From the NCBI GenBank assembly GCA_013821455.1, contig JACDGS010000008.1, forward strand, positions 1 through 64,000: a DNA stretch of 64,000 bases, given 5' to 3'. The translations under genes and the position numbers were made by a program. Source of the stretch: Chthoniobacterales bacterium (lineage in GTDB: Bacteria; Verrucomicrobiota; Verrucomicrobiia; Chthoniobacterales; UBA10450). The notes under the pieces are model-generated. The model saw only the letters and a program-made list of their open reading frames with translations, had not been told where the DNA came from and did not search any database. Each line of letters begins with the position of its first letter. The first letter of the stretch is position 1. Positions 2,569 through 43,689 of this stretch are shown in pieces.

Positions 2569-2573
2569 CTAAC

Positions 2574-2984: not shown

Positions 2985-3013
2985 CGCATCCGCTTTCGAG
3001 ATGAAGACGATAA

Positions 3014-3892: not shown

Positions 3893-3893
3893 C

Positions 3894-29491: not shown

Positions 29492-29514
29492 CCTTGTGCT
29501 CGCAAAACTTTCCC

Positions 29515-30600: not shown

Positions 30601-30603
30601 CGA

Positions 30604-31207
30604 CTCGTTTCCCGCAGGCGCTGCCGTGCATAATCGAGGAATCGTTAGGGAATTAATGCCCGCGCTTCGGCGAAGCATGCCGTCCCGGCTTTTGTAGAAT
30701 CCTCACGATCGCGGCTGAGGCATTAGGAGTTGCCTAACGAGAATAGGACTCGCGCTAAGTCCTCTCGACCCGAGTCTGGGCCCTTTCCGTTTATCCAGCG
30801 TGGTGGAGTTGTTTTCTTTCAGCGAGCGAGGTCGCTATGAGTTGTTTGAGCACCTTGCGATCAATATCGTTGAGCCTTCGCACGTAGAGGCAGCCTTTGT
30901 GCCTTCATGGGACCCGAAGATGCGGCGGCACGACGGGGAGGTCAATCCACTCGCGGCGACGGGAAGAAGCACGCAGACGACTCCCTAACGAGAAAAGAGT
31001 GGGAATAACCCGGATTATCACGGCGTCGCTCGAGAGCGAAAGCTTAGCCTAACGAGTATAAGGCGACCTGCTGGAAGGAACTCGCGCGAAGTAGAGCTTC
31101 AACGAAAGGTGCGGGGCACAACTGCAACTTGGGCACGAAGACGAAAGAACTGCTGTTGGCAACACGCACAGACCGCCCCCCCGAATCCGGCCCTATTCCT
31201 TCCGATC
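30604..31207. other. intergenic region with motif copies and TA repeat R1
   Basis: No convincing gene. It has GCCTAACGAGAATAGG at 30732-30747, an 8-mer copy at 30984-30991 and repeat R1 (31047-31173). A short plus-strand frame at 30800-30988 is unsupported. Confidence 0.5.
31047..31173 (-). repeat. TA-associated repeat R1
   Basis: One of four related 110-135 bp repeats that separate toxin-antitoxin loci. Read on the minus strand, the right end is CTTATACTCGTTAGGC and the left end is GTCTGTGCGTGTTGCC. This copy is the most diverged in the middle. Confidence 0.75.
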
Positions 31208-31546
31208 CTATCTCCGCGCGAGATAGTCGGCCAAACGGTTTAGCAGGCGTTGGTGTCGCGCTGCCGAGATCGAGCCGATGTCACCCAATAACTCATCGGC
31301 CGGAAGAAGAGCGAGAAAACCAAGGCGGATGAGCGATGTGTCCTGAAGGCCGCTCTCCGCGAAGTCCGGATCGGTTGCGACGATCACCTCGTCGAAATCA
31401 TCCACCCGGTGGTGCAATTGCCGGCTCACGCCGCAGAGAAGAAAATCACCGAAAGGCCGCATCGTCCGCAGGATGATCGCGGGCCGGTTTTTGGTCTGAC
31501 CGTCGGCTTGCACGAAAGCCGTCAGCACCACATCGCCCTCCTTCAC
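31208..31546 (-). CDS. MazF/PemK-family toxin
   Basis: A 112-residue type II toxin of the MazF/PemK family, an endoribonuclease. The family start is clear: KEGDVVLTAFVQADGQTKNR, PAIILRTMRPFGDFLLCGVS. The Arg of NRPAIIL and the turn after it are the usual active-site area. The start codon overlaps the antitoxin stop by four bases (ATGA), so the pair is translated together from the minus strand. It is the most distal of three TA loci in a row and the only one with an intact toxin. Confidence 0.85.
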   Translation of the reverse strand: MKEGDVVLTAFVQADGQTKNRPAIILRTMRPFGDFLLCGVSRQLHHRVDDFDEVIVATDPDFAESGLQDTSLIRLGFLALLPADELLGDIGSISAARHQRLLNRLADYLARR

Positions 31547-31773
31547 GGCTCAGCGCGAGAGCGAAGCATGGTTGCCGGATAGTCTGGCTCGTCTTCGGCA
31601 TAAGCGCGGGCCAAGCCGGCTTTGGAGAGCCCGTACCATGCATGCGCTTCGGAATCACCGGCGCTTCCGGGAAGAACGGTGACGAGCAACCGGGCATCCC
31701 GAGGCAAGGGAAAGGGTTCATCCAACTCGATGGCATCACCATTGACGTGTGCCGTAAGCGTTACGGTCTTCAT
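31543..31773 (-). CDS. antitoxin partner of the MazF-like toxin
   Basis: A 76-residue antitoxin (MKTVTLTAHVNGDAIELDEP followed by FPLPRDARLLVTVLP). It opens with the short beta-hairpin of AbrB/SpoVT-like or DUF104-type antitoxins, then an acidic tail (YAEDEPDYPATMLRS) that would wrap the toxin. The ATG at 31773 is chosen because the frame upstream continues into repeat R2. It precedes the toxin gene in a two-gene operon 87 bases after R2. Confidence 0.75.
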   Translation of the reverse strand: MKTVTLTAHVNGDAIELDEPFPLPRDARLLVTVLPGSAGDSEAHAWYGLSKAGLARAYAEDEPDYPATMLRSRAEP

Positions 31774-31859
31774 AGGCGCACCATATCTGCCCGCGCCGCT
31801 GCAAGCAAGCGTCGCAGAACTTCCGAGATTCGCAGGCTGACACGAGGAAACGAGGACGA

Positions 31860-31977
31860 GCCTAACGAGTATAAGACAAAGGTCGCTGGAAGAACCTCTG
31901 GTGAAGCAGGGCTTCAAAGGCAAGTGAGGAAATCAGAGATGTTATTGGCAACATGCACAGATAGACCCCTAATCCCC
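31860..31977 (-). repeat. TA-associated repeat R2
   Basis: Second repeat copy. Minus strand: GGGGATTAGGGGTC at the left end, GTTCTTCCAGC in the middle, CTTATACTCGTTAGGC at the right end. Its left end cuts off the toxin gene of locus 2. Confidence 0.85.
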
Positions 31978-32060
31978 GCAAGAATAGGAACTCGCCCCTC
32001 GTAGAAGGAGGCCGCCTCAATAAGTTCCGTTTCGGCGTCCGGGTGATAAGTCAGGCGCAT
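31978..32060 (-). pseudogene. truncated RelE/ParE-family toxin
   Basis: From an ATG at 32060 the frame reads MRLTYHPDAETELIEAASFY then EGRVPIL, which is the normal beginning of RelE/ParE toxins that follow this class of antitoxin. After about 27 residues it runs into repeat R2 and the rest of the toxin (normally about 95 residues) is missing. It overlaps the antitoxin stop, as expected for an operon partner. Confidence 0.7.
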
Positions 32061-32281
32061 CCGATCGCGCGCCGCGCCGCCGTCATGACCTCCTCGTGCG
32101 TGCGTGCGATCACGGCGCCAGAGGAAAGCTCTTGGTCGCGCCGGGCGGCCTCACCCACCGCGTCGCGCTCATTTGTGTCGGCGAGACCCGCATCGATGCT
32201 CTGCCAAAGCGTCTGCGCGAGCGAGACTCGCTCGAAAAGGGGGAGGGCCATCGCCTCGGAAGTGAGCTGCTGTGTGGACAT
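32051..32281 (-). CDS. putative addiction module antitoxin (TIGR02574 type)
   Basis: A 76-residue protein of the family called addiction module component (TIGR02574), the usual partner of RelE/ParE toxins. Segments LPLFERVSLAQTLWQSID and THEEVMTAARRAIG (the end has lost some family residues) support this. The ATG at 32281 gives the normal family length. Its toxin is cut short by repeat R2, so the antitoxin is orphaned. Confidence 0.75.
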   Translation of the reverse strand: MSTQQLTSEAMALPLFERVSLAQTLWQSIDAGLADTNERDAVGEAARRDQELSSGAVIARTHEEVMTAARRAIGCA

Positions 32282-32779
32282 GGCGAAGACGTAGCGAGCA
32301 GGACACACTTGGTCAACAGAGTGCGCGAGCAAACCTGACGAGAACGAAGTGGACCAGAAAACGACGACATAGACTTAGCCCGGCAGGGTGAGCGAGTCGC
32401 GCGAACGAATGAACAAGATCACCCATTGATTCCCACTATCCAATCCGTGCTTTTAAGGCTTCTAGGTCTTCCAAAAATAGCGAGATTATGAAGCTGCCCC
32501 CTTGTCCTAGCCTCGTCCTAGATTTTCACTAGATGGTGTCGGTCGTCAATCCAAATCGTAGCCTAACGAATATAAGACCAAGGCTGCTGGAAGAACCTCG
32601 AGCGGAGCAGAATTTCAAGCCAAGTGAGGAAATAAGAGATGCACGTTGGTAACATGCACAGACCGACCCCAAATTGCCTTCCTCGACCCCGAATCCCACT
32701 GTTCTCTAAATCAGCTGGCTGCGCCGTGCCGGCTTATGCCCGTGGTTTGACTAATTTGATGATCGCATCAGAAATTTGC
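32282..32779. other. intergenic region with TA repeat R3
   Basis: No supported gene. Repeat R3 lies at 32561-32670. The C-terminal frameshifted tail of the upstream PemK-like toxin (QISDAIIKLVKPRA) runs to about 32736. Confidence 0.5.
32561..32670 (-). repeat. TA-associated repeat R3
   Basis: Third copy. Minus strand: GTCTGTGCATGTTACC at the left end and CTTATATTCGTTAGGC at the right end, with GTTCTTCCAGCAGCC between. Confidence 0.82.
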
Positions 32780-33073
32780 TTACGGGGAAGCGTCGCGTAA
32801 GACGCCAACCTCCGAAGAAATCAAAGTGTGATGCGCAGTGAATAGTTTGGTGGGGCGGGCGTAGCTTGTCACGCGCAGCGATCCGCTTTGAAAATCCGTG
32901 TCGGTCACCCGGATAGCTTGTGGGTCTGAGTAAGGATTGCTGGTGATCTGGCACAGCAGCCAATCGCCGCGATCGCAGTCGGCGACCACCACGGCCGGCC
33001 GCAATTTCGCCTCCGACAAGTCGGAAAACGGGAATCGAACAAGAACTACTGAGCCTGTTGCAAATGAGCCCAC
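32780..33073 (-). CDS. PemK/MazF-like toxin with frameshifted C-terminus
   Basis: A 97-residue PemK-like toxin (GSVVLVRFPFSDLSEAKLRP, AVVVADCDRGDWLLCQITS, LRVTSYARPTKLFTAHHTLI). The start is a GTG at 33073 inside the end of the antitoxin gene. The frame stops after VLRDASP, but a neighbouring frame continues KQISDAIIKLVKPRA, the helical end normal for this family. One extra C in the run at about 32793-32796 explains it. Whether the shortened protein is active is unknown. Confidence 0.72.
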   Translation of the reverse strand: MGSFATGSVVLVRFPFSDLSEAKLRPAVVVADCDRGDWLLCQITSNPYSDPQAIRVTDTDFQSGSLRVTSYARPTKLFTAHHTLISSEVGVLRDASP

Positions 33074-33273
33074 GCGGCATCCTCCTCGGGACGATTCCAA
33101 TCTTCGGCCAGCGCGACCTCACTGAGCAGCGCGGTTTCTGCCCGGTTGGTGCTGGGCTCGTCTTCGAGAATGGTGACGAGGGCACGGCGTGCCGAGGACA
33201 AGCGGATGCCTTCGAGCAATCGCACCGTGCCGTGCTCATCGATGACCGCTTCAAGCGTCTGGATCATGCTCAA
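33046..33273 (-). CDS. antitoxin partner of the PemK-like toxin
   Basis: A 75-residue antitoxin: TLEAVIDEHGTVRLLEGIRL is the AbrB-like start and AEDWNRPEEDAAWAHLQQAQ the acidic toxin-binding tail. The gene overlaps the toxin start by 28 bases. An alternative ATG is two codons in. It is the first operon of the TA series, 107 bases downstream of repeat R4 on the minus strand. Confidence 0.75.
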   Translation of the reverse strand: MSMIQTLEAVIDEHGTVRLLEGIRLSSARRALVTILEDEPSTNRAETALLSEVALAEDWNRPEEDAAWAHLQQAQ

Positions 33274-33379
33274 GTTTAGCGGCTTTGCTTCACGCGGGCA
33301 AGGGCGTCGAAGGTCGAACGTCTATCGAGCGCGAATCAGAATGGCTTGAAACTTCCGAGGAAAGCATAAACAACTCTTG

Positions 33380-33512
33380 GCCTAACGAGTATAAGACAAA
33401 GTTCGCTCGACGAACCTTGAGACAGAGCTTCGGCGGAAATGAGCGGCGAATTGCAACATAGACACGAGGAAGCAGGTGCTTGGCAACATGCACAGACAGA
33501 TCCCTAATCCCC
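33380..33512 (-). repeat. TA-associated repeat R4
   Basis: Fourth copy. Minus strand: GGGGATTAGGGATC at the left end and CTTATACTCGTTAGGC at the right end. It opens the TA series. Confidence 0.82.
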
Positions 33513-33720
33513 GTTATTCGCTTGATACGTTCCACTGATCGCATCGGACCAGCCGCCCGAGTATCCGAACTCATATCCCATCCGTAGCATCCAAATCAAA
33601 GAGAGAGCCGCAACCAAGGGAATATCATCCGCTGATAGCCGCGGGGATGCTTATATGCAATGAACGTGAGGCCGGAAATCATCGCTACAATCAGCGCCAC
33701 CTACGATAGTCTGAAAGATC

Positions 33721-33780
33721 GGTCTAACGTTCTTCGACAGCCACGCCTTTACGGCGTTGGCTGGACGAACTGGTTCGACC
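33721..33780 (-). repeat. short 59-be-like attC site of the peptidase E cassette
   Basis: A 60-base imperfect palindrome. Minus strand: GGTCGAAC at one end and GTTAGACC at the other, with the L'' arm AGCCAACGCC pairing with GGCGTGGCT around a GTAAA-containing loop and one bulged A. Size and layout fit the short attC (59-base element) class. The R'' box has one mismatch. Confidence 0.78.
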
Positions 33781-33826
33781 CATCTTCAGTTTCACTCTTC
33801 CTAATAGGTCAGATTTAGCCATGAGC

Positions 33827-34471
33827 TTAAGTCCCTTGCTCTCTGCATTTGACATCTACAATGAGGGATTCTCCATCATGCAAAGCGACGAAAGGAATTT
33901 TGTTTCCAATGAAGTATTCTACAGATTTTTCGATAAGGGCTGATTCAGAATGATCTGACCTGTAATGGGGCACAATACAGTAAGGCACAAAGCTTAGTCC
34001 TTTCCAAATTACTTCGGGGGAGTATCCCAAAGGCATTGCGGCTGGATCATCAGCTAGGTGGATGCCTTCCAAAGTCGGAGTGACCACACAGGCCCCTGCA
34101 CTGTAACCGGAATAGACGAAATCATCTTCCCTAAGTTTTCTCTGAAGAATTAAGTCGAGACCGCTCTCTGCAAAAGCACGACGCAGGACAAAAGTATTTC
34201 CACCGGTTACCCAAATATAGCCAAACCCTTGCAAGTGTTTTTCCAATTCACCGGCTTTTTGAAAAAAATGACGCAAGTCTAAAGATTCGGGAAACAAGCC
34301 TATTGCGCTAAGATCCGTGATTTCTCTTTCCAACCCCTTTTTTAATCTCTCCGTGTCTCGGTAAACGTCGAGCGCATTTCGCACGATGGCAACCTTCTTA
34401 TTTTTGGCGGGTAGAGTTGATAGGCGCGAGGGTTCCTTACATAAATGATATGATGAAAGGTAAAGTTTCAC
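33827..34471 (-). CDS. peptidase E-like protein (family S51)
   Basis: A 214-residue peptidase of family S51 (dipeptidase E / cyanophycinase group). Evidence: GFGYIWVTGGNTFVLRRAF and the nucleophile elbow YSGYSAGACVV with its Ser, then a His in VPHYRSDHSES. S51 enzymes cut N-terminal Asp dipeptides. The start is taken as the GTG at 34471, just after the R' box of site A. Base use is clearly more AT-rich than the neighbours, and its attC (33721-33780) is a different, short class, so this cassette probably came from another source. Confidence 0.85.
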   Translation of the reverse strand: MKLYLSSYHLCKEPSRLSTLPAKNKKVAIVRNALDVYRDTERLKKGLEREITDLSAIGLFPESLDLRHFFQKAGELEKHLQGFGYIWVTGGNTFVLRRAFAESGLDLILQRKLREDDFVYSGYSAGACVVTPTLEGIHLADDPAAMPLGYSPEVIWKGLSFVPYCIVPHYRSDHSESALIEKSVEYFIGNKIPFVALHDGESLIVDVKCREQGT

Positions 34472-34477
34472 TTCTTT

Positions 34478-34600
34478 GTCTAACGAGAACAAGATCAGCC
34501 ACCGCTGGCGAGGGCGCGCGGGGCGGCGGGAGAAAGGGTTCGAGTCATGGGAATCTTGAGCGTACGCCGGCCAGCGGTTGGCTGCATCGCATGGTTAGGC
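34478..34600 (-). repeat. attC recombination site A (cassette array 2)
   Basis: Minus strand: R'' GCCTAAC (34594-34600), L'' AGCCAACCGCTGGC, L' GCCAGCGGTGGCTGATC, R' GTTAGAC (34478-34484). One bulged A in L''. Confidence 0.88.
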
Positions 34601-34632
34601 TTTTCGGTAAGCGATCACAGGACTGAGCTTCC

Positions 34633-35136
34633 CTATCCCTTGCGCCATCCTTTGGAGGTGCGACGCCACCGTCCGAACCAACCGCGATTAGAGTAATTCC
34701 AGCTACCGTCTGAGGCACTGTGCTCAATCTCATCGGGCGCGTTCATAATGGCCCTAATCCGTTGTTTCTCGTCGCGATGGCTAATCTGGTCCTGCCACTT
34801 GAGATAAGCTTCCACGCGTCCAGCCTTTTCTTCTGCGGCTTCCTTTTCGGCTGGGACCTGGTCTTGACGTCGCGCCTCTGCGGCCCTCTGTTCGGCCGCC
34901 GCAGAGGCGCGGTTACGTACCCTCTGTTCGGCGAAGAAGCGCTGCCGGTCCTCTTCGTGGCGGACCGCTAGCGCCTCCGCCTCCCGGCGAGCGGCAGCTA
35001 GTCGCTCGCGCTCCCGTTCTTGCTCGATGCGGCTCTGCTCTGCCCGATACTGAGCCCGCCTGGAGCGGGCCTCTCGGAAATGCTGCCCAGAAACGAGGCG
35101 AACGACTACTCGGAGCAATGTTTTAGTTGAGCGCAT
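34633..35136 (-). CDS. cassette-encoded coiled-coil protein
   Basis: A 167-residue protein of unknown function. After a short N-terminal hydrophobic stretch (TLLRVVVRLVSG), residues about 25-110 are a long charged helix rich in Arg, Glu, Ala and Gln (REARSRRAQYRAEQSRIEQE, RERERLAAARREAEALAVRH), probably a coiled coil. The C-terminal 30 residues are Gly/Trp/Arg-rich (WNYSNRGWFGRWRRTSKGW). The ATG at 35136 lies just inside the cassette after the R' box of site B. Confidence 0.6.
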   Translation of the reverse strand: MRSTKTLLRVVVRLVSGQHFREARSRRAQYRAEQSRIEQERERERLAAARREAEALAVRHEEDRQRFFAEQRVRNRASAAAEQRAAEARRQDQVPAEKEAAEEKAGRVEAYLKWQDQISHRDEKQRIRAIMNAPDEIEHSASDGSWNYSNRGWFGRWRRTSKGWRKG

Positions 35137-35150
35137 GACGATCGCAAGAA

Positions 35151-35273
35151 GCCTAACGAGAACAAGATCAGCCACCGCTGGCGAAGGCGCGCGTCGCGGC
35201 GGGATGTGAGGTTTGAGTCATGGAAAACTTGAGCGTACGCCGGCCAGGGGTTGGCTGCATCGCATGGTTAGGC
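35151..35273 (-). repeat. attC recombination site B (cassette array 2)
   Basis: Minus strand: R'' GCCTAAC (35267-35273) and R' GTTAGGC (35151-35157). L'' AGCCAACCCCTGGC pairs less well than at the other sites (GCCAGCGGTGGC). Confidence 0.86.
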
Positions 35274-35399
35274 CCTAGATAATTCGTCGAGGGTCTCGTC
35301 TATCATGAGCTTCAGATGCGGGATCGCGACTGTCACATCGTCATCCATCACTTCGATACGATGACGAGCGCACGTAGGGGACGTCAAAATGCTGACCAT
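35268..35399 (-). CDS. 43-residue ORF ending in the attC R'' box
   Basis: From an ATG at 35399 it reads MVSILTSPTCARHRIEVMDD then DVTVAIPHLKLMIDETLDEL and SRA; the TAA stop is inside R'' of site B (GCCTAAC). It lies downstream of two other ORFs in the same cassette. The acidic amphipathic sequence and the exact stop position suggest a translated small protein or the tail of an older, broken gene. Function unknown. Confidence 0.4.
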   Translation of the reverse strand: MVSILTSPTCARHRIEVMDDDVTVAIPHLKLMIDETLDELSRA

Positions 35400-35413
35400 T
35401 GGGTGTTCCTTAT

Positions 35414-35647
35414 CTAGCGGTTGAAAGACAAGGGCATGTAACGCTCCTCGCCGTCGCTTTTCGCGAAGGTCGCCGACATGACTTGAGCCATGTTGTCAAG
35501 AGGGTCGTTGGCAGTGATTTGCTGAAGTTCCGGTGTTAGAAGATTGCCACCAATACTATACTGGTCGAACCGCTGATCTAGACCGTGAGCGAGATGCTGG
35601 CAGAGGGAATCGGAAAGAATTTGCCGACGGAAATAGTACCGGTTCAT
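35414..35647 (-). CDS. small cassette protein of unknown function
   Basis: A 77-residue frame from an ATG at 35647 (MNRYYFRRQILSDSLCQHLA ... FAKSDGEERYMPLSFNR). Its helical pattern and codon use look like coding sequence. It starts 26 bases after the preceding gene and is in the same direction. No family recognised; the frame upstream of this ATG overlaps the preceding gene and is ignored. Confidence 0.4.
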   Translation of the reverse strand: MNRYYFRRQILSDSLCQHLAHGLDQRFDQYSIGGNLLTPELQQITANDPLDNMAQVMSATFAKSDGEERYMPLSFNR

Positions 35648-35672
35648 CGGGCAGACCGCGACGTAAAACGCG

Positions 35673-36371
35673 TTACTTCGAGCTAAAGACGTAAATATGA
35701 TAGGTGGATTCGCCGACTTCGCGAATTCCACTACTTTTGTAAACCAAGGCATCAACCATATCACCATCGGCCAGCTTCGCTTGATCTGGATATCCCGTAA
35801 GGAATAGGAAAGGCTGTAGGTGGTCGCCCATGGAAGGGGTGTAAGCCGCCATTTCGATTCCTGCGGCGCGGTCAGTGTCTCGGTGCTCATAGAACACACT
35901 AACGTCCATAGTGTTCGGATCCACGACTATACCATCTGGCAACTTTTGAGAGACATGTCCCTCAACTCGATATTTTTTCCGGTCAGTGGCGGCCTTGGCT
36001 GCCGCCTGCTGTGTGGCGATTTCCGGTTCCCGCTGACTGGCAGCAGCTTGGTTAGTGGCGGCCTTGGCGGCAGCTTGTTGTGTGGCGATTTCCGCTTCCC
36101 GCCGACTGGCGGCAGCTTTTATAGCCGTTGCAAATTCCGCCGCTTTCTGAGGATTGTAGCCGTATTTGTGGCGCAAGTCGGGCGAAAGCTCCGAGAAAGG
36201 GATTTTGACGATTCCGTCGCTTTTGAGGACAACGATTCCATCGGGCTCAATCCGACTAACCGTAACTGCAACGAATTTCTCCCCCTTTAGCGTTGTGATA
36301 TCATCGGCGCGAGCGAGAGTTAAACTAACGAACAACAGAAAAGATGTAGCGGCTGTTTTCATAGTGCGCAT
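35673..36371 (-). CDS. secreted cassette protein with internal duplication
   Basis: A 232-residue exported protein. Signal peptide: TAATSFLLFVSLTLARA. Then a small strand-rich domain of a type common in Verrucomicrobia and Planctomycetes (DDITTLKGEKFVAVTVSRIE, PDGIVVLKSDGIVKIPFSEL). Residues about 95-150 hold two copies of REAEIATQQAAAKAAT, from a direct repeat in the DNA (about 35990-36120). A C-terminal domain follows (VFYEHRDTDRAAGIEMAAY). The gene starts shortly after the R' box of site C. Function unknown. Confidence 0.65.
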   Translation of the reverse strand: MRTMKTAATSFLLFVSLTLARADDITTLKGEKFVAVTVSRIEPDGIVVLKSDGIVKIPFSELSPDLRHKYGYNPQKAAEFATAIKAAASRREAEIATQQAAAKAATNQAAASQREPEIATQQAAAKAATDRKKYRVEGHVSQKLPDGIVVDPNTMDVSVFYEHRDTDRAAGIEMAAYTPSMGDHLQPFLFLTGYPDQAKLADGDMVDALVYKSSGIREVGESTYHIYVFSSK

Positions 36372-36379
36372 GTTTTGAA

Positions 36380-36502
36380 GCCTAACGAGAACAAGAGCAG
36401 CCACCGCGGGCGAGAGCGCGCGTGGCGGCGGGTGAAGAGGTTTGAGTCATAGGAATCTTGAGCGTGCGCCGGCCAGCGGTTGGCTGCATCGCCTGGTTAG
36501 GC
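36380..36502 (-). repeat. attC recombination site C (cassette array 2)
   Basis: Minus strand: R'' GCCTAAC (36496-36502), R' GTTAGGC (36380-36386), arms AGCCAACCGCTGGC with CCCGCGGTGGCT. Confidence 0.88.
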
Positions 36503-36985
36503 TTCATGGCGTCGAAGGGATAGTATCTGCTTGTAGCGCTTTGCGTCGACAGTGTCCATGAACTCGGCAATGACCCGATCACGAATTTCCGTCCCCCAGC
36601 GGCGACAAAGCACTGCAAGAACGAACGCATCATCATCGCCGAACTTGTGAATCGGCCACTTGACGCCAGCCTTCAGCTTGCATCCGGGCCAACGAGAAAC
36701 CCAGTAGTAATATTCGTATTCTTTGCCGCTCGGCTTGCGGATAAGCTCCGTCCGCGGATGGACACCGACAACGCCAGAACTATTGCGCGCGGTCATACGA
36801 TCCTTGGATGAGATTGGCGGCGGTAAAGTGCGGTGTTTCTGCCGAATCCACTTTTCCGCTACCTTTTCAGCGTCTTTCTACGAGCCGTGCTCTTTAACGC
36901 TGAACGTCTGCTGGTGACGAGTGCCTTGGCGCTGGACGCGAGCGAGAACGTATTTCTCGGGATAATTTCGGGTGTGATGAGTCAT
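36497..36985 (-). pseudogene. AP2-like DNA-binding protein interrupted by an amber codon
   Basis: From an ATG at 36985 one frame runs to the TAA in R'' of site C (36497) and is interrupted only by a TAG at 36878-36880 (codon 36). Before it: MTHHTRNYPEKYVLARVQRQ and TFSVKEHGS; after it: KDAEKVAEKWIRQKH, then SGVVGVHPRTELIRKPSGK and YYYWVSRWPGCKLKAG. The two halves look like AP2-type DNA-binding modules, found in plant regulators and in phage and bacterial homing enzymes. The part after the stop (36497-36796, 99 residues) could be made on its own. Confidence 0.55.
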
Positions 36986-37001
36986 GCGCTTGGAAAATGA
37001 G

Positions 37002-37124
37002 GTCTAACGAGAACAAGATCAGCCACCGCTGGCAAGAACGCGCGTGGTGGCGGGATGTGAGGTTGGAGTCATGGAAAGCTTGAGCGTACGCCGGCCAGCG
37101 GTTGGCTGCATCGCATGGTTAGAT
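37002..37124 (-). repeat. attC recombination site D (cassette array 2)
   Basis: Minus strand: R'' ATCTAAC (37118-37124), R' GTTAGAC (37002-37008), standard arms with bulged A. Confidence 0.88.
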
Positions 37125-37131
37125 GTCCGCG

Positions 37132-37587
37132 TCACGTTGGAAAGATGGGAACAGAGTCCTCGTCTCGGTAAAACTGAACTCCTCGCACCTTACTATCGAA
37201 TGTAGAGGGCGGGTCGAAATAGATGAAGATCGCACCGCCCGAAGGCAAGTCGTATCGTATGATTCCCGTGTCCGCTACCGGGCTATGGGGACCGAGCTCA
37301 CTGGTCAAAGTTTCGAGCGTGGTATTGCGCGTAATAAACTGAAACTCATGTGGCAGCTCGTCGGCGCTCCATTCTTTGGGATCGCTAAAGACCGCCGTAT
37401 CGCGACTGCGGTGCTCGCGGATGGCAAGGTTGGTCATCGCTATGACCCAAAAGAGCAAAGAGACGCAAAAGACAACGCGGGTCGCCGGGGGCCAGAACTT
37501 GCCAACAACGACCGCGAGGAAGAATGATCCCACGATGCCGGCCACAAAAACGGCGATATGTCGTTGTACATGTTCGAACGTAATCAT
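37132..37587 (-). CDS. cassette-encoded membrane protein
   Basis: A 151-residue protein with two adjacent membrane helices (HIAVFVAGIVGSFFLAVVVG and FCVSLLFWVIAMTNLAI), then a soluble domain of about 90 residues (FITRNTTLETLTSELGPHSP, GAIFIYFDPPS). The segment TTLETLTSELG recalls BamE-like start helices. The start ATG overlaps the R' box of site E (GTTAGATG). Unknown function. Confidence 0.6.
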   Translation of the reverse strand: MITFEHVQRHIAVFVAGIVGSFFLAVVVGKFWPPATRVVFCVSLLFWVIAMTNLAIREHRSRDTAVFSDPKEWSADELPHEFQFITRNTTLETLTSELGPHSPVADTGIIRYDLPSGGAIFIYFDPPSTFDSKVRGVQFYRDEDSVPIFPT

Positions 37588-37708
37588 CTAACGAGAACAA
37601 GATCAGCCACCGCTGGCGAGGGCGCGCGTGGTGGCGGGATGTGAGGTTTGAGTCATGGGAAACTTGAGCGTACGCCGGCCAGGGGTTGGCTGCATCGCAT
37701 GGTTAGAT
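37586..37708 (-). repeat. attC recombination site E (cassette array 2)
   Basis: Minus strand: R'' ATCTAAC (37702-37708), R' GTTAGAT (37586-37592). Confidence 0.88.
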
Positions 37709-37725
37709 GTTTGTTGGCTTGCACG

Positions 37726-38184
37726 CTATTTGCGCGGAAGGAGAACGGCTCCCGCAGGCAAGGGAGCCGGGCCGGATGCCATCCCGAAGCTGACTGGAAA
37801 ATCAACCTCTTGCCATTTCCCGGGCTTCCATCGCCACTGACGCAACGCGTTCAGCGCGCTTTGATCGAGCGACCTGATTCCGGTGGATTTGAGTATCATC
37901 ATGTTTGTCACCCGACCTGTTTTGAGATCGAGCACCAACCGGAATACGCCAGCGCCTTGATTGTGATTTCTTCTGTCTTGAAATGAGTATTCAAAGCCAA
38001 CCGCTTTAATCACGTCACTGTTCCAAGGCGGATTGCCGTGATATTCGTTGCCGTGATGCCGAACACCTTTGGCGTCAACCGCAGCCGGGCTGGAGTCAAC
38101 CGGTGGCGCGCATAGGAGAGTAGACGATGCCAGGCAAACGAAACCGCCCGCCAGCGCTCGCAAGTATATGAGGTGTTTTTGCAT
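37726..38184 (-). CDS. TonB-like C-terminal domain protein
   Basis: A 152-residue exported protein. Signal peptide about 1-25 (LAGGFVCLASSTLLCAPP). Residues about 60-140 match a TonB C-terminal domain: VFRLVLDLKTGRVTNMMILK followed by STGIRSLDQSALNALRQWRW. In TonB that domain contacts outer-membrane transporters, but here it is free and not attached to a membrane anchor, so it may act as a periplasmic adaptor. The start is close to the R' box of site F. Confidence 0.72.
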   Translation of the reverse strand: MQKHLIYLRALAGGFVCLASSTLLCAPPVDSSPAAVDAKGVRHHGNEYHGNPPWNSDVIKAVGFEYSFQDRRNHNQGAGVFRLVLDLKTGRVTNMMILKSTGIRSLDQSALNALRQWRWKPGKWQEVDFPVSFGMASGPAPLPAGAVLLPRK

Positions 38185-38289
38185 CTAACGAGAACAAGAT
38201 CAGCCACCGCGCGAATTACAAGTGACGTTCATAACACTGAAATCTAGGCATACGGACGGTCCGCGGTTGGCTGCATCGCCTGGTTAGAC
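38183..38289 (-). repeat. attC recombination site F (cassette array 2)
   Basis: A shorter variant. Minus strand: R'' GTCTAAC (38283-38289), L'' CAGCCAACCGCGGA, L' TTCGCGCGGTGGCTG, R' GTTAGAT (38183-38189). The closest relative is site 2 of array 1. Confidence 0.86.
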
Positions 38290-38290
38290 C

Positions 38291-38509
38291 TCACGCGTTC
38301 AATACTATGTTGCGTAGCCTCTGGTGCTCTGTCGCAGGTATAGACGAAGAAAAACGGACTGTGCCTGCGCGCGTAACAGTAATCTTTGCGTCTGTGATCC
38401 CGCCGTCGCTTAAGACGCGCTCCACAGCTCTCAACGCGCCCGTGGAAATGCTGCCTTTGACGCACTGTGCGACACCGCCAACTATGCGAATAACAGCATC
38501 TGCAAACAC
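38291..38509 (-). CDS. DUF3634-like small protein
   Basis: A frame of about 72 residues from a GTG at 38509 (VFADAVIRIVGGVAQCVKG, GITDAKITVTRAGTVRFSSS, IPATEHQRLRNIVLN). The order of strands and the final QRLRNI resemble the DUF3634 family, small membrane-associated proteins of unknown role. A membrane helix would be expected ahead of this part; an ATG frame at about 38594 (IRFFFRSAVATAVLAGA) carries a hydrophobic run but in another frame, so the N-terminus may be frameshifted. Confidence 0.42.
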   Translation of the reverse strand: MFADAVIRIVGGVAQCVKGSISTGALRAVERVLSDGGITDAKITVTRAGTVRFSSSIPATEHQRLRNIVLNA

Positions 38510-38605
38510 AGCAGGACTCCAGCGCTCCAAGCTTTGCTGGCGCCTGCGAGAACAGCGGTAGCTACTGCACTGCGAAAGAAGAATCGAATCATCGACGGCT
38601 CAGAG

Positions 38606-38729
38606 GTCTAACGAGAACAAGAGCAGCCACGCCTACCGAGAGCGAGCGTGGGACGAAGTAATAAGGTTGTAGTCATCTGAAAAGTGGGTCGTACGCCGGG
38701 TAGGCGTTGGCTGCATCGCATGGTTAGGT
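38606..38729 (-). repeat. attC recombination site G (cassette array 2)
   Basis: Minus strand: R'' ACCTAAC (38723-38729), L'' AGCCAACGCCTACC, L' GGTAGGCGTGGCTG, R' GTTAGAC (38606-38612). Same arm type as sites 5 and 6 of array 1. Confidence 0.88.
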
Positions 38730-39059
38730 GTGGACGTCGCTGCCGGACCGAGGTGGAGCAACAATCCGCCGAACCGCCTGGCTGCCGGACTGGCGTGGCA
38801 TAAAGACCGCGCGCGAAAGAAAACTCCGAGCTGGCATGACGGCACTGCACCAGATCTCTGGAAAAAGCGCGAGCACAAAAGCGATCCGGCGCGGAGAGAA
38901 TCCAAAGCGGCGCTGCCGTGCCATGACCGCGCTTGCGAACCCGAAAGACTCGGCGCTCCGTGAAACCAGCGGAGCCGAGGAGCGCTCCCGCAACCAAGAA
39001 GCAATGCGGCTAACTCTGGAACGGGGGAAGGCATCGCGATCAGAGGAATGCACCAAAGC
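38730..39059 (-). other. gene-poor cassette, paralogue 1 of 3
   Basis: A cassette of about 330 bp with no convincing gene. It is clearly related to the next two cassettes: shared segments include CAGATCTCTGGAAAAAGCGC (near 38853) and CTCGGCGCTCCGTGAAACCA (near 38949). Frames on both strands stay open by high GC content but are not conserved in phase among the three copies. Confidence 0.6.
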
Positions 39060-39182
39060 ACCTAACGAGAACAAGATCAGCCACCACTGGCGAGAGCGCG
39101 CATTGGCTGCAATGGGAGTGATGAAGTCACGGAAAACTTGTCTTCTCGCCGGCCAGGGGTTGGCTGCATCGCTTGGTTAGGT
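39060..39182 (-). repeat. attC recombination site H (cassette array 2)
   Basis: Minus strand: R'' ACCTAAC (39176-39182), R' GTTAGGT (39060-39066). Arms CCAACCCCTGGC and GCCAGTGGTGGC. Confidence 0.86.
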
Positions 39183-39539
39183 CTTTTGTTCACGACAGAC
39201 GTTGCGCAAGAATCCCCCAGAACAAGCGTGACTGCCGGACAGAGGCGGAGCGAAGAGGAGTGACACGGAAGCGAGTGCAACAGATCTCTGGAAAAGGCGC
39301 AAATCAAAATGAGTGCGGCGCGTAGAGAACCAAAGTCGGAGATGCCGTGCCAGAGCCGCGCCGGCGCACACGATCGACTCGGCGCTCGGAAGCGTCGCCA
39401 CAGTGGGAACCGCGCGAGCGACTGAAAAGCGAAGTCGCGCGCGAAGCCGACGGAGCCGAGAACGGAGCAAGCTTCCGAGAACCGATGTAGCGAACTCGGG
39501 AACGGGAGAAGACATCGCGACAGAGAAGGGCGTCCAGAG
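39183..39539 (-). other. gene-poor cassette, paralogue 2 of 3
   Basis: Related to the cassettes on either side: AACAGATCTCTGGAAAAGGC (near 39279), GAGATGCCGTGCCAGAGCCG (near 39339) and ACTCGGCGCTCGGAAGCG match in order. No gene supported. Confidence 0.6.
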
Positions 39540-39664
39540 ACCTAACGAGAACAAGATCAGCCACGCCTACCGGGAGCGTGCGTGGATCGAAGAGAGGAGG
39601 TTATAGTCATCTGGAAAAGTGGAGCGTACGCCGGGTAGGCGTTGGCTGCATCGCATGGTTAGGT
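39540..39664 (-). repeat. attC recombination site I (cassette array 2)
   Basis: Minus strand: R'' ACCTAAC (39658-39664), L'' AGCCAACGCCTACC, L' GGTAGGCGTGGCTG, R' GTTAGGT (39540-39546). Confidence 0.88.
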
Positions 39665-39982
39665 TTTGTGTTCACGAGAGACGTTGAGCAGGAATCCCCG
39701 GGAACTTGCGTGGCTGCCGGACGGAGGTGGAGCGGAAAGGAGCGAGGCGGAACCACATGGAAGCGACTGCAACAGATCTCTGGAAAAAGCGCGAGTCCGA
39801 ATTCGGTGCGGCGCGGAAAGAACCAATGGCGGCGATGCCGTGCCAAAGCCGCGAACCCAAGCACGAGAGACTCGGCGCTCTGCGAAGCCAGCTGAGCCGA
39901 GCAGGAAGCAAGCTACCCAAAACCGAGGCAGCTAACTTGCGAATGGGAAAAGACATCGCTACACGCAGCGGCACGCGCACAA
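39665..39982 (-). other. gene-poor cassette, paralogue 3 of 3
   Basis: Third member: AACAGATCTCTGGAAAAAGC (near 39769), GCGATGCCGTGCCAAAGCCG (near 39832) and GACTCGGCGCTCTGCGAAGC follow in the same order and spacing as in the other two. No gene supported. Confidence 0.6.
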
Positions 39983-40105
39983 ACCTAACGAGAACAAGAT
40001 CAGCCACCGCTGGCGGGAGCGCGCGTCGCGGCGGGAGAAGAGGGTTGAACCATGGAAAACTCGGCCGTACGCCGGCCAGCGGTTGGCTGCATCGCCTGGT
40101 TAGAC
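39983..40105 (-). repeat. attC recombination site J (cassette array 2)
   Basis: Minus strand: R'' GTCTAAC (40099-40105), R' GTTAGGT (39983-39989), arms AGCCAACCGCTGGC and GCCAGCGGTGGC. Confidence 0.88.
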
Positions 40106-40138
40106 GATTTTGTGAGGTGTGACCGGAAAGATCCATCT

Positions 40139-40540
40139 CTAATCCGTCGCGATCCGATAATGATCGAAGCGACCTTGCGCGTCGAGCCAAATAAGGAGCC
40201 ACTCCGAATCAATCTTGAAGTAGCTGCTGCGCTCGGGACCAAGAATGTAAATCAAGTCCCGCTTCGTGTCTTTGAAGTATGGCGTCACGAGAGACGGTCC
40301 AAGTAGTCGCTCGATCTCGTTGCGGGTCTTGCCGGGAAGGATACGTGTGACAACATCGCGAAGCATCTGCTGCCGAACGGTAACGTCGCCCTTGCGCGCC
40401 TCAGACGAATGGTCTGCCGTCCAATCAGCAGGCTCAAACGCTCGACGGTCTGAGCCGGCGGGTAACTCGCCCCGGCGACAACCGACCTCCACTAAACAAG
40501 CAGCGATGAAAAACAGAGTAGCTGATACTCGGAGTGACAC
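40139..40540 (-). CDS. cassette-encoded lipoprotein, BamE-like fold
   Basis: A 133-residue lipoprotein: MSLRVSATLFFIAACLVEVG then Cys21. Residues about 60-133 have the helix-helix-sheet order of BamE/SmpA-like domains (LPGKTRNEIERLLGPSLV, YILGPERSSYFKIDSEWLLI, WLDAQGRFDHYRI). In BamE this domain supports outer-membrane protein assembly; as a free cassette product its role is open. It is the first typical cassette of array 2 (read on the minus strand). Confidence 0.68.
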   Translation of the reverse strand: MSLRVSATLFFIAACLVEVGCRRGELPAGSDRRAFEPADWTADHSSEARKGDVTVRQQMLRDVVTRILPGKTRNEIERLLGPSLVTPYFKDTKRDLIYILGPERSSYFKIDSEWLLIWLDAQGRFDHYRIATD

Positions 40541-40554
40541 GGGAAGGGTGAATC

Positions 40555-40689
40555 GTCTAACGAGAATTCGATGACCTAAAGTCGTAGAAAAAGGCGACTG
40601 GAAGTCGCATATTTCCTTGGAGCCAGGCTTCGAGGCTAGGGCTGAGCATCATATGAGTGGGTCTGTATGGGTGCTCGGCTCGGTTAGAT
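40555..40689 (-). repeat. atypical attC-like site K, entry end of array 2
   Basis: Minus strand: ATCTAAC (40683-40689) and GTTAGAC (40555-40561) 135 bp apart, preceded by TTCTC like the other R' ends, but the inside is unrelated to the other sites and the L arms do not pair clearly. It could be a diverged attC or an attI remnant. Confidence 0.45.
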
Positions 40690-40691
40690 CC

Positions 40692-41067
40692 TAGCTCATG
40701 CCTTTGTCGGCGGCTAAGCCGACTCGCCGGCGCAACGCGGTGTTGTCGTGGCCCGCGGCGTCGGAGCCGTGGGGGCGCTCGGCGTGGATGGCTTGCTGGA
40801 TGCGGCGGCGACGCCGGCTGATTTGTTCGCACTGGGCTTTGAAGGCGGTGCGCGCTTCGGTGGCGTCGGCCTGGCGGCGCTTTGTATGGTTTGCACGCCG
40901 CTAAATGCGCCCACGTCGGTGCGGAGCTCGAGTAGATGCGGGGTGTCGAACATGTTGTTGAGCGTTTTCCGCAGGTTAACGATTCCGGAAACAGTGTGAA
41001 GAATAAAATGCACTTCAAATTTGTTAGGCTGGTTCTTCCGAAGATCCGGAATATTCGGCGAGGGCAA
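40692..41067 (-). pseudogene. frameshifted ORF next to site K
   Basis: Two minus-strand frames carry successive coding-like parts: HFILHTVSGIVNLRKTLNNM then FDTPHLLELRTDVGAFSGVQ, and after a shift near 40875 KRRQADATEARTAFKAQCEQ then ISRRRRRIQQAI. The second frame ends in a TAG three bases before the ATCTAAC of site K, as expected for a cassette gene. Family not recognised. Confidence 0.3.
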
Positions 41068-41212
41068 TAGTTTTTTGCCACGGATGGAACACTGATAGGG
41101 GAATAGCTCGAGCAGAGTTTAGGCGATTTAGCGTATGTGCAGTTGGATTGGGTTGCTGCGGTGGGAGGATCGCCGCGGGGAATGAGGTAAGCAGCCGATG
41201 GAGAAAAAGTTC

Positions 41213-41260
41213 GCGATGGCGAGGCGCCATCGCCAGCACGCGAGGGCGCGTGCGCTCCCC
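41213..41260. repeat. REP-like palindromic element
   Basis: The right part (41234-41260) nearly equals one arm of the glucosidase insertion (19549-19575). The whole unit closely matches the reverse complement of 29401-29448. It contains the hairpin GCGATGGCGAGGCGCCATCGC. It lies in a gene-free stretch (41068-41447). Confidence 0.8.
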
Positions 41261-41447
41261 AGCGCGGGATGCGATGCTGCGCATATTTCGGAAAGGCCGC
41301 GGCCTCGGTGTCACGGTAATTTTGTTCGTCAGCGTCCGGATTCATGAGATCGCGCAGTGTAGGAGCGAGGAGGCGCGGCGGTCAAAAACACTCGCGCGGG
41401 CTGGCAAAAATTTTTGCGCGGTCTGTGAAGCTGGCCTAGATGCAATT

Positions 41448-42089
41448 ATGGCCGAGCAGGACTCAGACCGGGCTTGGGACGAATACGAGTGGGAACGTTT
41501 TCTCCAACAGCAGGACCAGAAGACGGAGAAATACATGGAGCTGCTCGAGAAATATATCGACGATCCGAACCGCGACGAGATCGTGGCGCGCGAGATGGGT
41601 TGGTATCAGGGCGCCGAAGACGAGGCGGAGGAGTGGCAGGATGAAATGGGGATCGCCGACGAGGACAGCGCGCTGCCGGTCGATCTGGTGAACGATTCCG
41701 GCGAAAGCTTCGAGCAGCATTCGCTCTATCGCGCTTCCTTTAACCTAACGATCTGGATCGACCGGTTATTTGAGAGCGAGAGTCAACTGCAAAACGATCC
41801 GGCCGCAGTGAAGCTGGCGACGCATGCGGCGCTCGGGGCGGCGAAACTGGCGGCGGCGTTGAGTGACGAAGAGGCGGACGAGCTGGGCATGACGATCGCG
41901 TATCTCAAGCGGTCGCTGAAGGCGATCACGGTGGCGATGGATGCCGCGGCGCAGCTCTTCGCGGAGAAAACGATCACGCGCTTGCAGCAGGCGGCTCTGC
42001 AAAAACGGCTCTTCCAGGTGCGCGACGGCATCATCCTCCTCATGGGCGAATTTCGCGGCGAATGGCTGCGCCGTTACGGCAGCCTTTAG
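41448..42089 (+). CDS. helical acidic protein of unknown function
   Basis: A 213-residue soluble protein, mostly helical and acidic. The first 90 residues are rich in Asp, Glu, Gln and Trp (QDQKTEKYMELLEKYIDDPN, WQDEMGIADEDSALPVDLVN); the second half is Ala/Leu helical (VKLATHAALGAAKLAAALSD, YLKRSLKAITVAMDAAAQLF). The ATG at 41448 is chosen because the upstream frame runs through a palindromic element. It ends 34 bases before an ECF sigma gene and may belong to that operon. No family recognised. Confidence 0.65.
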   Translation: MAEQDSDRAWDEYEWERFLQQQDQKTEKYMELLEKYIDDPNRDEIVAREMGWYQGAEDEAEEWQDEMGIADEDSALPVDLVNDSGESFEQHSLYRASFNLTIWIDRLFESESQLQNDPAAVKLATHAALGAAKLAAALSDEEADELGMTIAYLKRSLKAITVAMDAAAQLFAEKTITRLQQAALQKRLFQVRDGIILLMGEFRGEWLRRYGSL

Positions 42090-42123
42090 CCGTTGAATGA
42101 ATCGGTAAGTGCCCCGTCCAACC

Positions 42124-42735
42124 ATGAATAAGGATGCGACTCTGGAGGAGGCGGAGGTCCCCGATGCAGTGCTGGTCGAGCGAGCGCAGCTTGGTGAGAC
42201 CGTGGCCTTCGACCAACTTGTCGGTCGTTATCGCAGCCGGATTTTTGGAATGATTTACAACATGGTACATAACGAGCAGGATGCCTGGGATCTTGCGCAG
42301 GACAGCTTCGTCAAAGCGTGGAAATCGATCGCGCGCTTTCGCGGGCAGTCGTCGTTTTACACCTGGATTTATCGCATCGTCATGAATGTGACGATCGACT
42401 GGCTGCGTAAGAAACAAGTAAAGGGCGGCGACGCGGAATTCGATGACGCGATTCAACTACAGCAGATCGATCCCGCTGCGCGCACAGCGCCGAAAGCCGA
42501 TGCGCTGCCGCACGAGCGGATGGTGCAGGGCGAGATTCGGGTGCGGATCGAGGCCGCGATCGCGCAGCTCTCGCCGGAGCATCGCGCGGTGATTTTAATG
42601 AAGGAAGTCGAAGGCATGCAGTACCACGAGATGGCGGAGTCGTTAGGCTGTTCCATCGGCACGGTGATGTCGCGCTTGTTTTATGCGCGCAAAAAATTGC
42701 AGACTCTGTTGCGGGATGTTTATGAAAACGTTTGA
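42124..42735 (+). CDS. ECF RNA polymerase sigma factor (RpoE-like)
   Basis: A 203-residue ECF sigma factor. Region 2: FDQLVGRYRSRIFGMIYNMV and DAWDLAQDSFVKAWKSIARF with YTWIYRIVMNVTIDWLRKK; region 4: LSPEHRAVILMKEVEGMQYH then EMAESLGCSIGTVMSRLFYA. It directs RNA polymerase to stress or envelope promoters. The gene overlaps the next gene, a likely anti-sigma factor, by 14 bases. The motif TCGTTAGGC (42640-42648) encodes the conserved SLG of region 4. A GTG at 42109 is an alternative start. Confidence 0.93.
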   Translation: MNKDATLEEAEVPDAVLVERAQLGETVAFDQLVGRYRSRIFGMIYNMVHNEQDAWDLAQDSFVKAWKSIARFRGQSSFYTWIYRIVMNVTIDWLRKKQVKGGDAEFDDAIQLQQIDPAARTAPKADALPHERMVQGEIRVRIEAAIAQLSPEHRAVILMKEVEGMQYHEMAESLGCSIGTVMSRLFYARKKLQTLLRDVYENV

Positions 42736-43243
42736 GGAAAATTGGACCGCCTGGATTGATGGCGAGCTGAGCGAGACGGAGCGGGCTGAATTTGAGGCCA
42801 CGCTCGAGGATCGTCTCGGCGCGGAAACGGAGCGGAACGACGCGCTCAAACTCGGTGCGTTTCTCAAGCGGGAGTTGCAGCCACGCGCGATGGGGAACGA
42901 GGAATTTTTCCATCACCAACTGCGCGAGCGGATCGCGCACGAGGAGGCGACGCCGGTTGAAGAAAGCCGGCCGATTCTGCGCGAGACGTGGTGGTCGATC
43001 CGGCGTTTGCTTTGGCTGGGCGCGACATCGCTCGCGATTTTCGCGGTGTGCACTTATTTCGTTAAGCGCGAACAACCCGCGCCTAACCAATCGGAATATC
43101 TCACGCAGATTTTGAATTCCCGGGTCGATCCCAGTGTGAACCCGGACGCGACTGTGTCTATTTTCCAAACCAAGGATGACAAAGTGACAGTGCTTTGGGT
43201 TGATGGATTGAAATCACTCCCGACCGACTACGCCGCGAAGTGA
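42722..43243 (+). CDS. putative anti-sigma factor
   Basis: A 173-residue protein with an N-terminal cytoplasmic domain (FEENWTAWIDGELSETERAE, FEATLEDRLG) of the kind seen in ZAS-like anti-sigma factors but without the HxxxCxxC zinc motif, then one membrane helix at about residues 98-112 (WLGATSLAIFAVCTYFV) and a short periplasmic tail. The position right after and overlapping an ECF sigma gene supports a role in holding that sigma factor at the membrane. Confidence 0.7.
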   Translation: MKTFEENWTAWIDGELSETERAEFEATLEDRLGAETERNDALKLGAFLKRELQPRAMGNEEFFHHQLRERIAHEEATPVEESRPILRETWWSIRRLLWLGATSLAIFAVCTYFVKREQPAPNQSEYLTQILNSRVDPSVNPDATVSIFQTKDDKVTVLWVDGLKSLPTDYAAK

Positions 43244-43689
43244 TGATTCGCCGGCGTTACTTCTCGGCTCTCTTCGCGCTCGCGTTTTTCCTGCTCGCGA
43301 GCGGACAGGTGCGTGCGGGACAGAACGTCTGGAGCGGGCTGGTCGTCGCGACCAACGTTGCCAAACCGCAGCCACCGCCCGCGGAGATGCATCATTTCGA
43401 GGGGACGTTGAAGCGAACCTTCGGCTACAACCAATTCGCGCTCATCGGGCAGTCGCGCAAAGCGCTGGAGACCGGCGAGGAGAATTGGCTCGCGTCGAGC
43501 AAACACTTCTCGCTCCACGTCGATGCGCGCGGAGCAACGCGTGATGGCTACCGACTGAACCTGCAGTTATTTCAGGATCGGCAGGTGCTGCTCGAAACGG
43601 ATACGACCTTGAAGAAGAGCAGCCCGCTCGTGATCAAAGGCCCGCAGATCGGCGCGGGGCAGTTGTTGTTGCTGCTCGTCGTGCAGTGA
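43243..43689 (+). CDS. secreted protein of sigma operon
   Basis: A 148-residue exported protein. Signal peptide: RRYFSALFALAFFLLASGQV. The mature part is strand-rich (HHFEGTLKRTFGYNQFALIG, LNLQLFQDRQVLLETDTTLK). Its ATG overlaps the anti-sigma stop (GTGATGA), so it is the third gene of the sigma operon and may be a target or sensor of envelope stress. Family not recognised. Confidence 0.62.
   Translation: MIRRRYFSALFALAFFLLASGQVRAGQNVWSGLVVATNVAKPQPPPAEMHHFEGTLKRTFGYNQFALIGQSRKALETGEENWLASSKHFSLHVDARGATRDGYRLNLQLFQDRQVLLETDTTLKKSSPLVIKGPQIGAGQLLLLLVVQ

Follow-up and report, generated by a model that had tools for sequence, protein, structure and literature searches.

A minus-strand integron cassette array, one of many in a Chthoniobacterales genome, and a scattered 9-mer shared with the crossover consensus

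The array described here, designated array 2, is a genuine integron cassette array and one of many in its genome. The genome (GCA_013821455.1; 4.3 Mb) is that of a soil Verrucomicrobium of the order Chthoniobacterales, close to Candidatus Udaeobacter, and the sequence examined, termed the window, comprises the 64,000 nt at positions 1-64,000 of the forward strand of JACDGS010000008.1. We consider it highly probable that array 2 belongs to a multi-locus chromosomal integron served by an integrase encoded on another contig, C81, and that this system is overlaid by a scattered 9-mer, TCGTTAGGC. Array 2 itself is of an already known kind, and it adds a well-defined verrucomicrobial integron lineage, the cassettes of which are spread across many chromosomal loci. 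The attC family comprises about 90 sites on about 25 contigs of this genome and is present in 44 of 58 relatives, which carry several attC loci per genome, the well-assembled ones included (G016, 20 contigs; G014, 10 contigs). Since the assembly consists of 117 contigs and often breaks inside arrays, it is uncertain how many distinct arrays there are.

attC sites of array 2

Ten attC sites of 107-126 nt, spanning 34477-40105, were recovered on the minus strand by the covariance model R1 with E values of 3e-22 to 3e-36. These are located at 34477-34600 (137 bits, E 5e-34), 35150-35273 (142 bits), 36379-36502 (137 bits), 37001-37124 (143 bits), 37585-37708 (146 bits), 38182-38289 (a site of 107 nt with a shorter loop; 93 bits, E 3e-22), 38605-38729 (127 bits), 39059-39182 (125 bits), 39539-39664 (132 bits), and 39982-40105 (138 bits). 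The sites contain R'', L'', L', and R' boxes and a conserved bottom-strand hairpin, and the chance expectation for each of their half-site patterns was 0.00 in shuffled sequences. The stems covary: among 17 sites, 19 cells were changed on both sides compared with 6.8 in shuffles, and among 83 sites, in an alignment fitted to the model, 94 compared with 29.5. A further site of another type, a short attC-like hairpin at 33721-33781 on the minus strand, closes the last cassette (fold z -4.35; none of 200 shuffles was as stable).

The orientation follows from the genes, as the cassette ORFs begin in or just past R' (GTTAGATG) and end shortly before the next R'', and most compartments contain one minus-strand ORF with its start at or near R'. 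Site recovery, covarying stems, and ORF direction thus bear out the sequence-only reading, which had described a minus-strand cassette array. Repeated, structured, and dispersed hairpins might also represent a REP- or MITE-type repeat or an RNA structure, but this is extremely improbable in view of the layout of the R and L boxes, the presence of an intI gene next to such sites, the lack of any match in an Rfam search of the window, and the fact that the hairpins alternate regularly with genes whose reading direction runs from R'. A tRNA search of the window also found none.

Cassettes

The division into eleven compartments was confirmed. All cassettes are read on the minus strand, and each is made up of a gene and a downstream attC, the bottom strand of which forms a hairpin. 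Read from the attI-like right end described below, the first cassette carries an ORF for a lipoprotein-like product (40139-40540) with weak similarity to BamE (PF04355, E 0.048, below the cut-off). It is followed by three cassettes without a clear gene, two of which are paralogous, namely 39665-39981, which contains interrupted frames (73-79 % identity to its neighbours), and 39183-39538 (72-79 %). The third, at 38730-39058, was found in an all-against-all cassette comparison to share 92.7 % identity with a cassette of the intI-linked array on C81. Two cassette ORFs have an ATG that overlaps the R' of attC: 37726-38184, which encodes a protein with a TonB C-terminal domain (PF03544, E 6e-10; TIGR01352 above the cut-off), and 37132-37587, the product of which has a hydrophobic N-terminus. 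The latter and the ORFs at 36497-36796, 35673-36404 (with a signal-peptide-like start at an internal ATG), and 34633-35175 (charged and coiled-coil-like) are without a Pfam match. The last ORF, at 33827-34492, encodes a member of peptidase family S51 (PF03575, E 5e-20).

Integrase and related arrays

The sequence-only reading had proposed a search for an integrase gene acting on the same site family, and one intact intI is indeed present in this genome, on C81. Its product matches TIGR02249 over the whole length with 479 bits (cut-off 265), and its best PDB match is the Vibrio integrase IntI4 (2a3v). Five attC sites of the family lie beside the gene on the opposite strand, in the usual divergent layout with attI in between; on C81, attI is clear from its position. 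Across the family, attI and attC have TCTCGTTAG in common. The enzyme would cut at G^TTAGRY and thereby move cassettes between attC and attI and also from array to array; such movement is suggested by the intact enzyme, the shared sites, and the one cassette shared by the two arrays. Contigs C18 and C112 each contain an attI and an intI stub (at least two further decayed platforms).

Array 1 lies at 86-4017 of the window on the plus strand and comprises seven attC sites, which are detected by the same model R1 as those of array 2, in agreement with the earlier view that both arrays use one attC family. Its first attC is fused to the end of an insertion-sequence-like repeat (1-98, plus strand), which occurs in 13 copies in the genome and forms an identical junction with eight attC. 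In the search for a transposase of this repeat, a stretch of 34 residues similar to an IS110-type start gave no Pfam hit.

Chromosomal context of array 2

Array 2 is part of a block extending from about 30600 to 41290, and hence larger than the sequence-only reading had assumed, which is inserted between an rlmN-like radical SAM methyltransferase gene (29422-30600, plus strand; Pfam) and the next conserved gene. The latter opens a conserved segment at 41407-43687 (plus strand; 67-79 % blastn identity with the corresponding loci in 11 relatives), followed by the M1 aminopeptidase gene pepN (43977-46667, plus strand; Pfam), which is likewise syntenic. In relatives, rlmN and the 41407 gene adjoin each other with no array between them and in the same order and orientation as here. 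The right edge of the block is marked by a remnant at 41287-41345 (minus strand), in which just the beginning of a thioredoxin-reductase-like gene is left (13 of 17 residues identical in tblastn); in G001 and G004 this gene is whole at the same locus. The left part of the block (30700-33560, minus strand) contains toxin-antitoxin genes, with PemK toxins at 31208-31546 and 32780-33100 and an antitoxin at 32051-32278, among four repeats of about 150 nt (31040-33530; nhmmer) ending in TATACTCGTTAGGC. These repeats were rejected as attC, as neither R'' nor an attC structure was seen, and the left part (30600-33560), which has no typical attC, may be a separate insertion.

This context bears on the relationship of the two arrays. 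They belong to the same family, lie on opposite strands, and are about 30 kb apart, and it had been suggested that they derive from one ancestral array that was split or inverted, or else represent two integrase-dependent insertions. Comparison with relatives speaks against the former: in many relatives the two flanks of array 2 are array-free neighbours, and here they have retained this ancestral arrangement and orientation; therefore no inversion breakpoint lies within array 2. In addition, the family has many other arrays, so that the proximity of two of them calls for no particular connection. We regard a split by inversion as highly improbable, a verdict limited to array 2, as array 1 is cut short on its left by the end of the contig, at the insertion-sequence-like repeat. 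Separate insertions come nearer to the observations, with many arrays rather than two.

The proximal end of array 2

The right end of array 2 is an atypical site (40555-40687) that was missed by the covariance model. Both R ends are present and the L boxes do not match, and the R' side is of the attI rather than the attC type. The attI-like stretch at 40555-40576 on the minus strand (CGAATTCTCGTTAGAC) is identical in 14 of 14 nt to the intI-adjacent attI of the relatives G003, G018, and G023, and this 14-mer was found in none of 195 attC. It is an attI-like end without an adjacent intI; tblastn with 12 family integrases revealed no intI remnant at 30001-34000 and 40001-42000. This end is probably an old attI. 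As it faces the first cassette, array 2 was probably once a full integron platform that has since lost its own intI, a loss seen halfway on C18 and C112. At present the array, with its attC and genes read one way and no integrase gene beside it, corresponds to a CALIN (an attC array without a nearby integrase), which could be served in trans by the C81 enzyme. Alternatively, the right end may be a decayed attC, because no integrase remnant was found and an R''-like TCTAACC occurs 110 nt further on.

A different origin would be seeding of array 2 by cassettes inserted at an ordinary chromosomal, attG-like site, with later growth of the array at that place, for which the roughly 4,600 copies of TCGTTAGGC might serve as landing sites. 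The 9-mer contains the cleavage sequence G^TTAGGC, and attG is a known target class, named besides attI and attC (PMC12901181). Given that the proximal end equals the attI of relatives over 14 nt, that GTTAGGC is not preferred at array ends, and that the motif copies in genes derive from substitution, we judge this unlikely and favour origin from an attI platform.

The genome-wide 9-mer

TCGTTAGGC corresponds to the end of the crossover consensus TCTCGTTAGRY of attC and attI. With 4,605 copies, about one per 0.93 kb, compared with 62 for the reversed word, it is the most over-represented 9-mer of the genome (rank one in 400 kb). The strands are used equally (2299/2306), and perfect copies outnumber those of all 27 one-mismatch neighbours together (393 vs 260). 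The motif tolerates coding sequence, being somewhat denser outside genes, and cassette bodies totalling 32 kb contain no copy. Alignments with the homologous positions of relatives are gap-free, so the copies in genes arise by substitution, and an origin as cassette insertion scars was ruled out. A replication-oriented signal of the Chi or KOPS type was likewise dismissed, as the strand bias of the 9-mer is not coupled to GC skew (r 0.12). This scatter matches the pattern of DNA uptake sequences, which suggests a role of the 9-mer in DNA uptake. The competence proteins ComEC and DprA scored above the cut-off; both are widespread and not diagnostic.

The match to the crossover site could be due to chance, the 9-mer being unrelated to the integron, and we rate this as almost an even call. 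TCTCGTTAGRY also occurs in the attC of motif-poor relatives, and thus genome motif and attC end do not vary together. The full 9-mer is present in just 26 of 83 attC of this genome and in 13 of 64 in motif-poor relatives, a difference too weak to argue for an uptake bias shaping attC ends. Moreover, relatives contain a second such motif, AAGATCGACA, without an attC match; as part of attC it was excluded in G014 and G016, where it is absent from the attC ends that were compared. Against chance stand the position of TCGTTAGGC over the cleavage point and the fact that just 0.04-0.07 % of all 9-mers are equally common in attC. The more specific proposal that TCGTTAGGC is a functional uptake sequence derived from or captured by the crossover site, so that cassettes would be uptake-tagged and transformation coupled to capture by the integrase, is rather doubtful.

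Comparison with known systems

Text searches of the literature yielded nothing relevant on Udaeobacter integrons, on CALIN or IntegronFinder in Verrucomicrobia, on uptake sequences in combination with integrons, or on the octamer, and the full-text searches found no uptake sequence for Verrucomicrobia.

Like sedentary chromosomal integrons and CALINs, of which that of Vibrio cholerae is an example, the system described here has an integrase of the TIGR02249 family, attC sites of a family typical of the taxon, cassettes that are poor in promoters and of unknown function, and toxin-antitoxin genes near by. In contrast to these, many short arrays instead of one large array are distributed over the chromosome, several platforms are decayed, and the attC of 107-126 nt have the end TCTCGTTAGRY in common with attI. 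Insertion sequences associated with attC form the IS1111-attC group, which the repeat at 1-98 resembles as a multi-copy element fused to attC at one fixed point; it differs in that a family model identified no transposase and some copies have non-attC neighbours.

In a paper from 2006, Pasteurellaceae and Neisseriaceae are the only groups with described uptake sequences (PMC1626085). TCGTTAGGC resembles the 9-bp Pasteurellaceae sequence AAGTGCGGT and the DUS dialects of Neisseriaceae in its length, its density of about one per kb, the absence of strand bias, many genic copies with a somewhat higher density outside genes, the excess of perfect over one-mismatch copies, an origin by substitution, and lineage-specific dialects (PMC1626085; PMC3630211). 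Unlike these, it is a putative uptake sequence, belongs to another phylum, and is situated in an integron crossover consensus. An abundant soil group contains a DUS-like motif with dialects, one of which matches an integron crossover site, and through TCGTTAGGC a possible origin of uptake watermarks from the site of a mobile element becomes testable.

attC sites and layout of the minus-strand array

The integron array on the minus strand at 33721-40689 (array 2) contains ten repeats of 107-126 nt each, located at 34477-40105. In a search allowing up to three mismatches, the patterns of both repeat ends matched only at these repeats and at those of 1-4.1 kb (array 1); the number of matches expected by chance is 0.00. 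When 17 sites from the two arrays were used to build a covariance model, it recovered all 17, and the covariation of the R''/R' and L''/L' pairs was well above shuffled and slid controls in two alignments, the second of which was fitted to the covariance model. On the minus strand, the sites read YCTAACC-NNGC-GATGCAGCC ... GGCTGATC-TTGTTCTC-GTTAGRY, which is the R''-L''-L'-R' layout of attC. The ten typical sites listed by the sequence-only reading are real and correctly placed, and its proposal that both arrays use one attC family is borne out by the single covariance model matching them. Several cassette open reading frames start inside or directly after R' (GTTAGATG) and stop just ahead of the next R'', which establishes the minus-strand reading direction as had been suggested. 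In both arrays, the L'' box carries an extra base (GATGCAGCC vs GATCAGCC), which would leave the recombining strand with an unpaired C where a G is usual; an unpaired C has a precedent in attCdfrA1 (PMC3053210).

The short site at 33721-33781 forms a strong hairpin and is an attC of another type than the typical ten. The array lies where it had been located, but its left boundary was misplaced, the true extent being larger to the left. Between 30700 and 33560, no typical attC was found; four copies of a ~150-nt repeat (31040-31200, 31851-32003, 32553-32696, and 33371-33530), each with TATACTCGTTAGGC or a slightly altered form of it as its end, alternate with PemK/MazF-type toxin-antitoxin genes. 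They may represent a separate island or cassettes with a different end type.

Integrase and related arrays in the genome

The assembly comprises 4.30 Mb in 117 contigs, the window being bases 1-64000 of contig C72 (117,466 bases). Its relatives place the genome in the order Chthoniobacterales (Verrucomicrobia). A search for an integrase gene (intI) revealed an intact one on another contig (C81:2854-3861), whose product scores 479 bits against the integron integrase model TIGR02249, for which the cut-off is 265. Among solved structures, Vibrio IntI4 (2a3v) is its best match, with an alignment covering the whole length, and the nearest named integrase, from a Candidatus Udaeobacter MAG, shows 77% identity. 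Five attC sites of the same family adjoin this intI on the opposite strand, with an attI-like sequence (CTACTTCTCGTTAGATG) in between. Genome-wide, the covariance model finds ~90 sites of the family on ~25 contigs; how many separate arrays these form is uncertain, because many of the sites are at the ends of contigs. Array 2 and the arrays on C78, C102, and C112 are internal to their contigs, and several separate attC loci also occur in the long-contig relatives G016, G010, and G034. Contigs C18 (locus L164:13630-13990) and C112 (20426-20720) carry decayed integron platforms, in which attI is accompanied by no more than the first 45-80 residues of intI. The leaders of C112 and C81 differ very little in sequence, which points to platforms that were duplicated and later decayed.

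Window positions 1-98 are the end of a repeated element, of which 13 copies were found in the genome. In eight arrays, most of them at a contig end (C5, C10, C19, C22, C29, C72, C87, and C91), it is joined to an attC at a point between R'' and L''. It is probably an attC-targeting insertion sequence of the IS1111 type; a family-model search identified no transposase in it.

Origin of array 2

Between rlmN (window 29422-30600) and the gene block starting at 41407, relatives have 80-350 bp, or ~1.8 kb including a thioredoxin-reductase-like gene in G001 and G004; in the window the gap is ~10.7 kb and retains a 17-residue stub of that gene (41287-41345). A search for attC at this locus in the relatives found none; the only matches were ~5 kb away, in G016. 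Array 2 is therefore a lineage-specific insertion. The sequence-only reading had considered one ancestral array split or inverted; for array 2, an inversion breaking an older array was rejected because both flanks retain the ancestral order and orientation.

At the atypical proximal (right) end of array 2 (CGAATTCTCGTTAGAC, 40555-40576), a 14-nt string is identical to attI in three relatives and is present in 0 of 195 attC examined. We infer that this is an old attI whose integrase gene would have been lost; a search for an intI remnant beside array 2 found none. The cassette at 38730-39058 shares 92.7% identity with C81:531-858 in the integrase-linked array, with different neighbours, which fits movement between arrays by a common integrase; duplication by other means is possible. 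Four paralogous cassettes of ~320-360 nt (38730-39981 and L008:531-858, the C81 copy) are without a clear open reading frame and are possibly non-coding or decayed.

A word found across the genome and in the crossover site

The 9-mer TCGTTAGGC occurs 45 times in 49 kb of the window outside the arrays (0.37 expected), on both strands of 4101-30500 and 41401-64000, and 4605 times in the genome (2299 forward, 2306 reverse; ~1 per kb), compared with 29 and 33 copies when read backwards. In a 400-kb sample drawn from the genome's other contigs it ranks first among over-represented 9-mers (393 copies observed, 2.8 expected), and these perfect copies exceed all 27 one-mismatch words combined (260). 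The flanking bases are nearly free, 71% of copies lie in genes (76% gene coverage by a crude gene caller), the copies are spread about evenly over all four stop-free phases, and the strand does not follow GC skew. In conserved genes, copies occupy gap-free homologous positions, in many cases conserved among genus members and lacking elsewhere, so they arise by substitution. Cassette bodies hold none in 32.4 kb (33 expected).

Enrichment is strong in the genus (1400-2750 copies in its other members) and also in G005 (2147) and G014 (1802); it weakens across the remainder of the family, and other families of the order lack it. In other genera of the family (G014, G016, G009, G012, G021, and G023), AAGATCGACA serves as a second genome-wide word in place of, or besides, TCGTTAGGC (4653 copies in G014, which has both, 1509 in G021, 1419 in G009, and 23 in the own genome). 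A third candidate word, CTGAGTAC, was seen in G019.

TCGTTAGGC also matches the end part of TCTCGTTAGRY, the attC/attI consensus, and spans the cleavage point. A chance match seems unlikely, as no more than ~0.04-0.07% of 9-mers reach its frequency in attC, yet this is a single coincidence. Motif-poor relatives have identical attC and attI ends, so the crossover sequence is older than, or independent of, the enrichment. The full word is present in 26 of 83 own attC ends and in 13 of 64 of motif-poor relatives, without clear bias, and array ends show no preference for GTTAGGC. These points speak against a tight link and, weighed with the unlikely chance match, make a causal connection of the word to the integron doubtful.

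Comparison with known systems

As an integron array, array 2 belongs to an already known kind; its interest is raised by the way arrays are dispersed over many loci and, most of all, by the genome-wide word common to the crossover site. The word and its behaviour in the manner of a DNA-uptake sequence are facts of the sequence, and a role in DNA uptake appears somewhat likely; ComEC and DprA are present in the genome, neither being diagnostic of uptake. TCGTTAGGC and AAGATCGACA together show the pattern, with its dialects, that has been described for uptake sequences in Pasteurellaceae and in Neisseriaceae (PMC1626085, PMC3630211).
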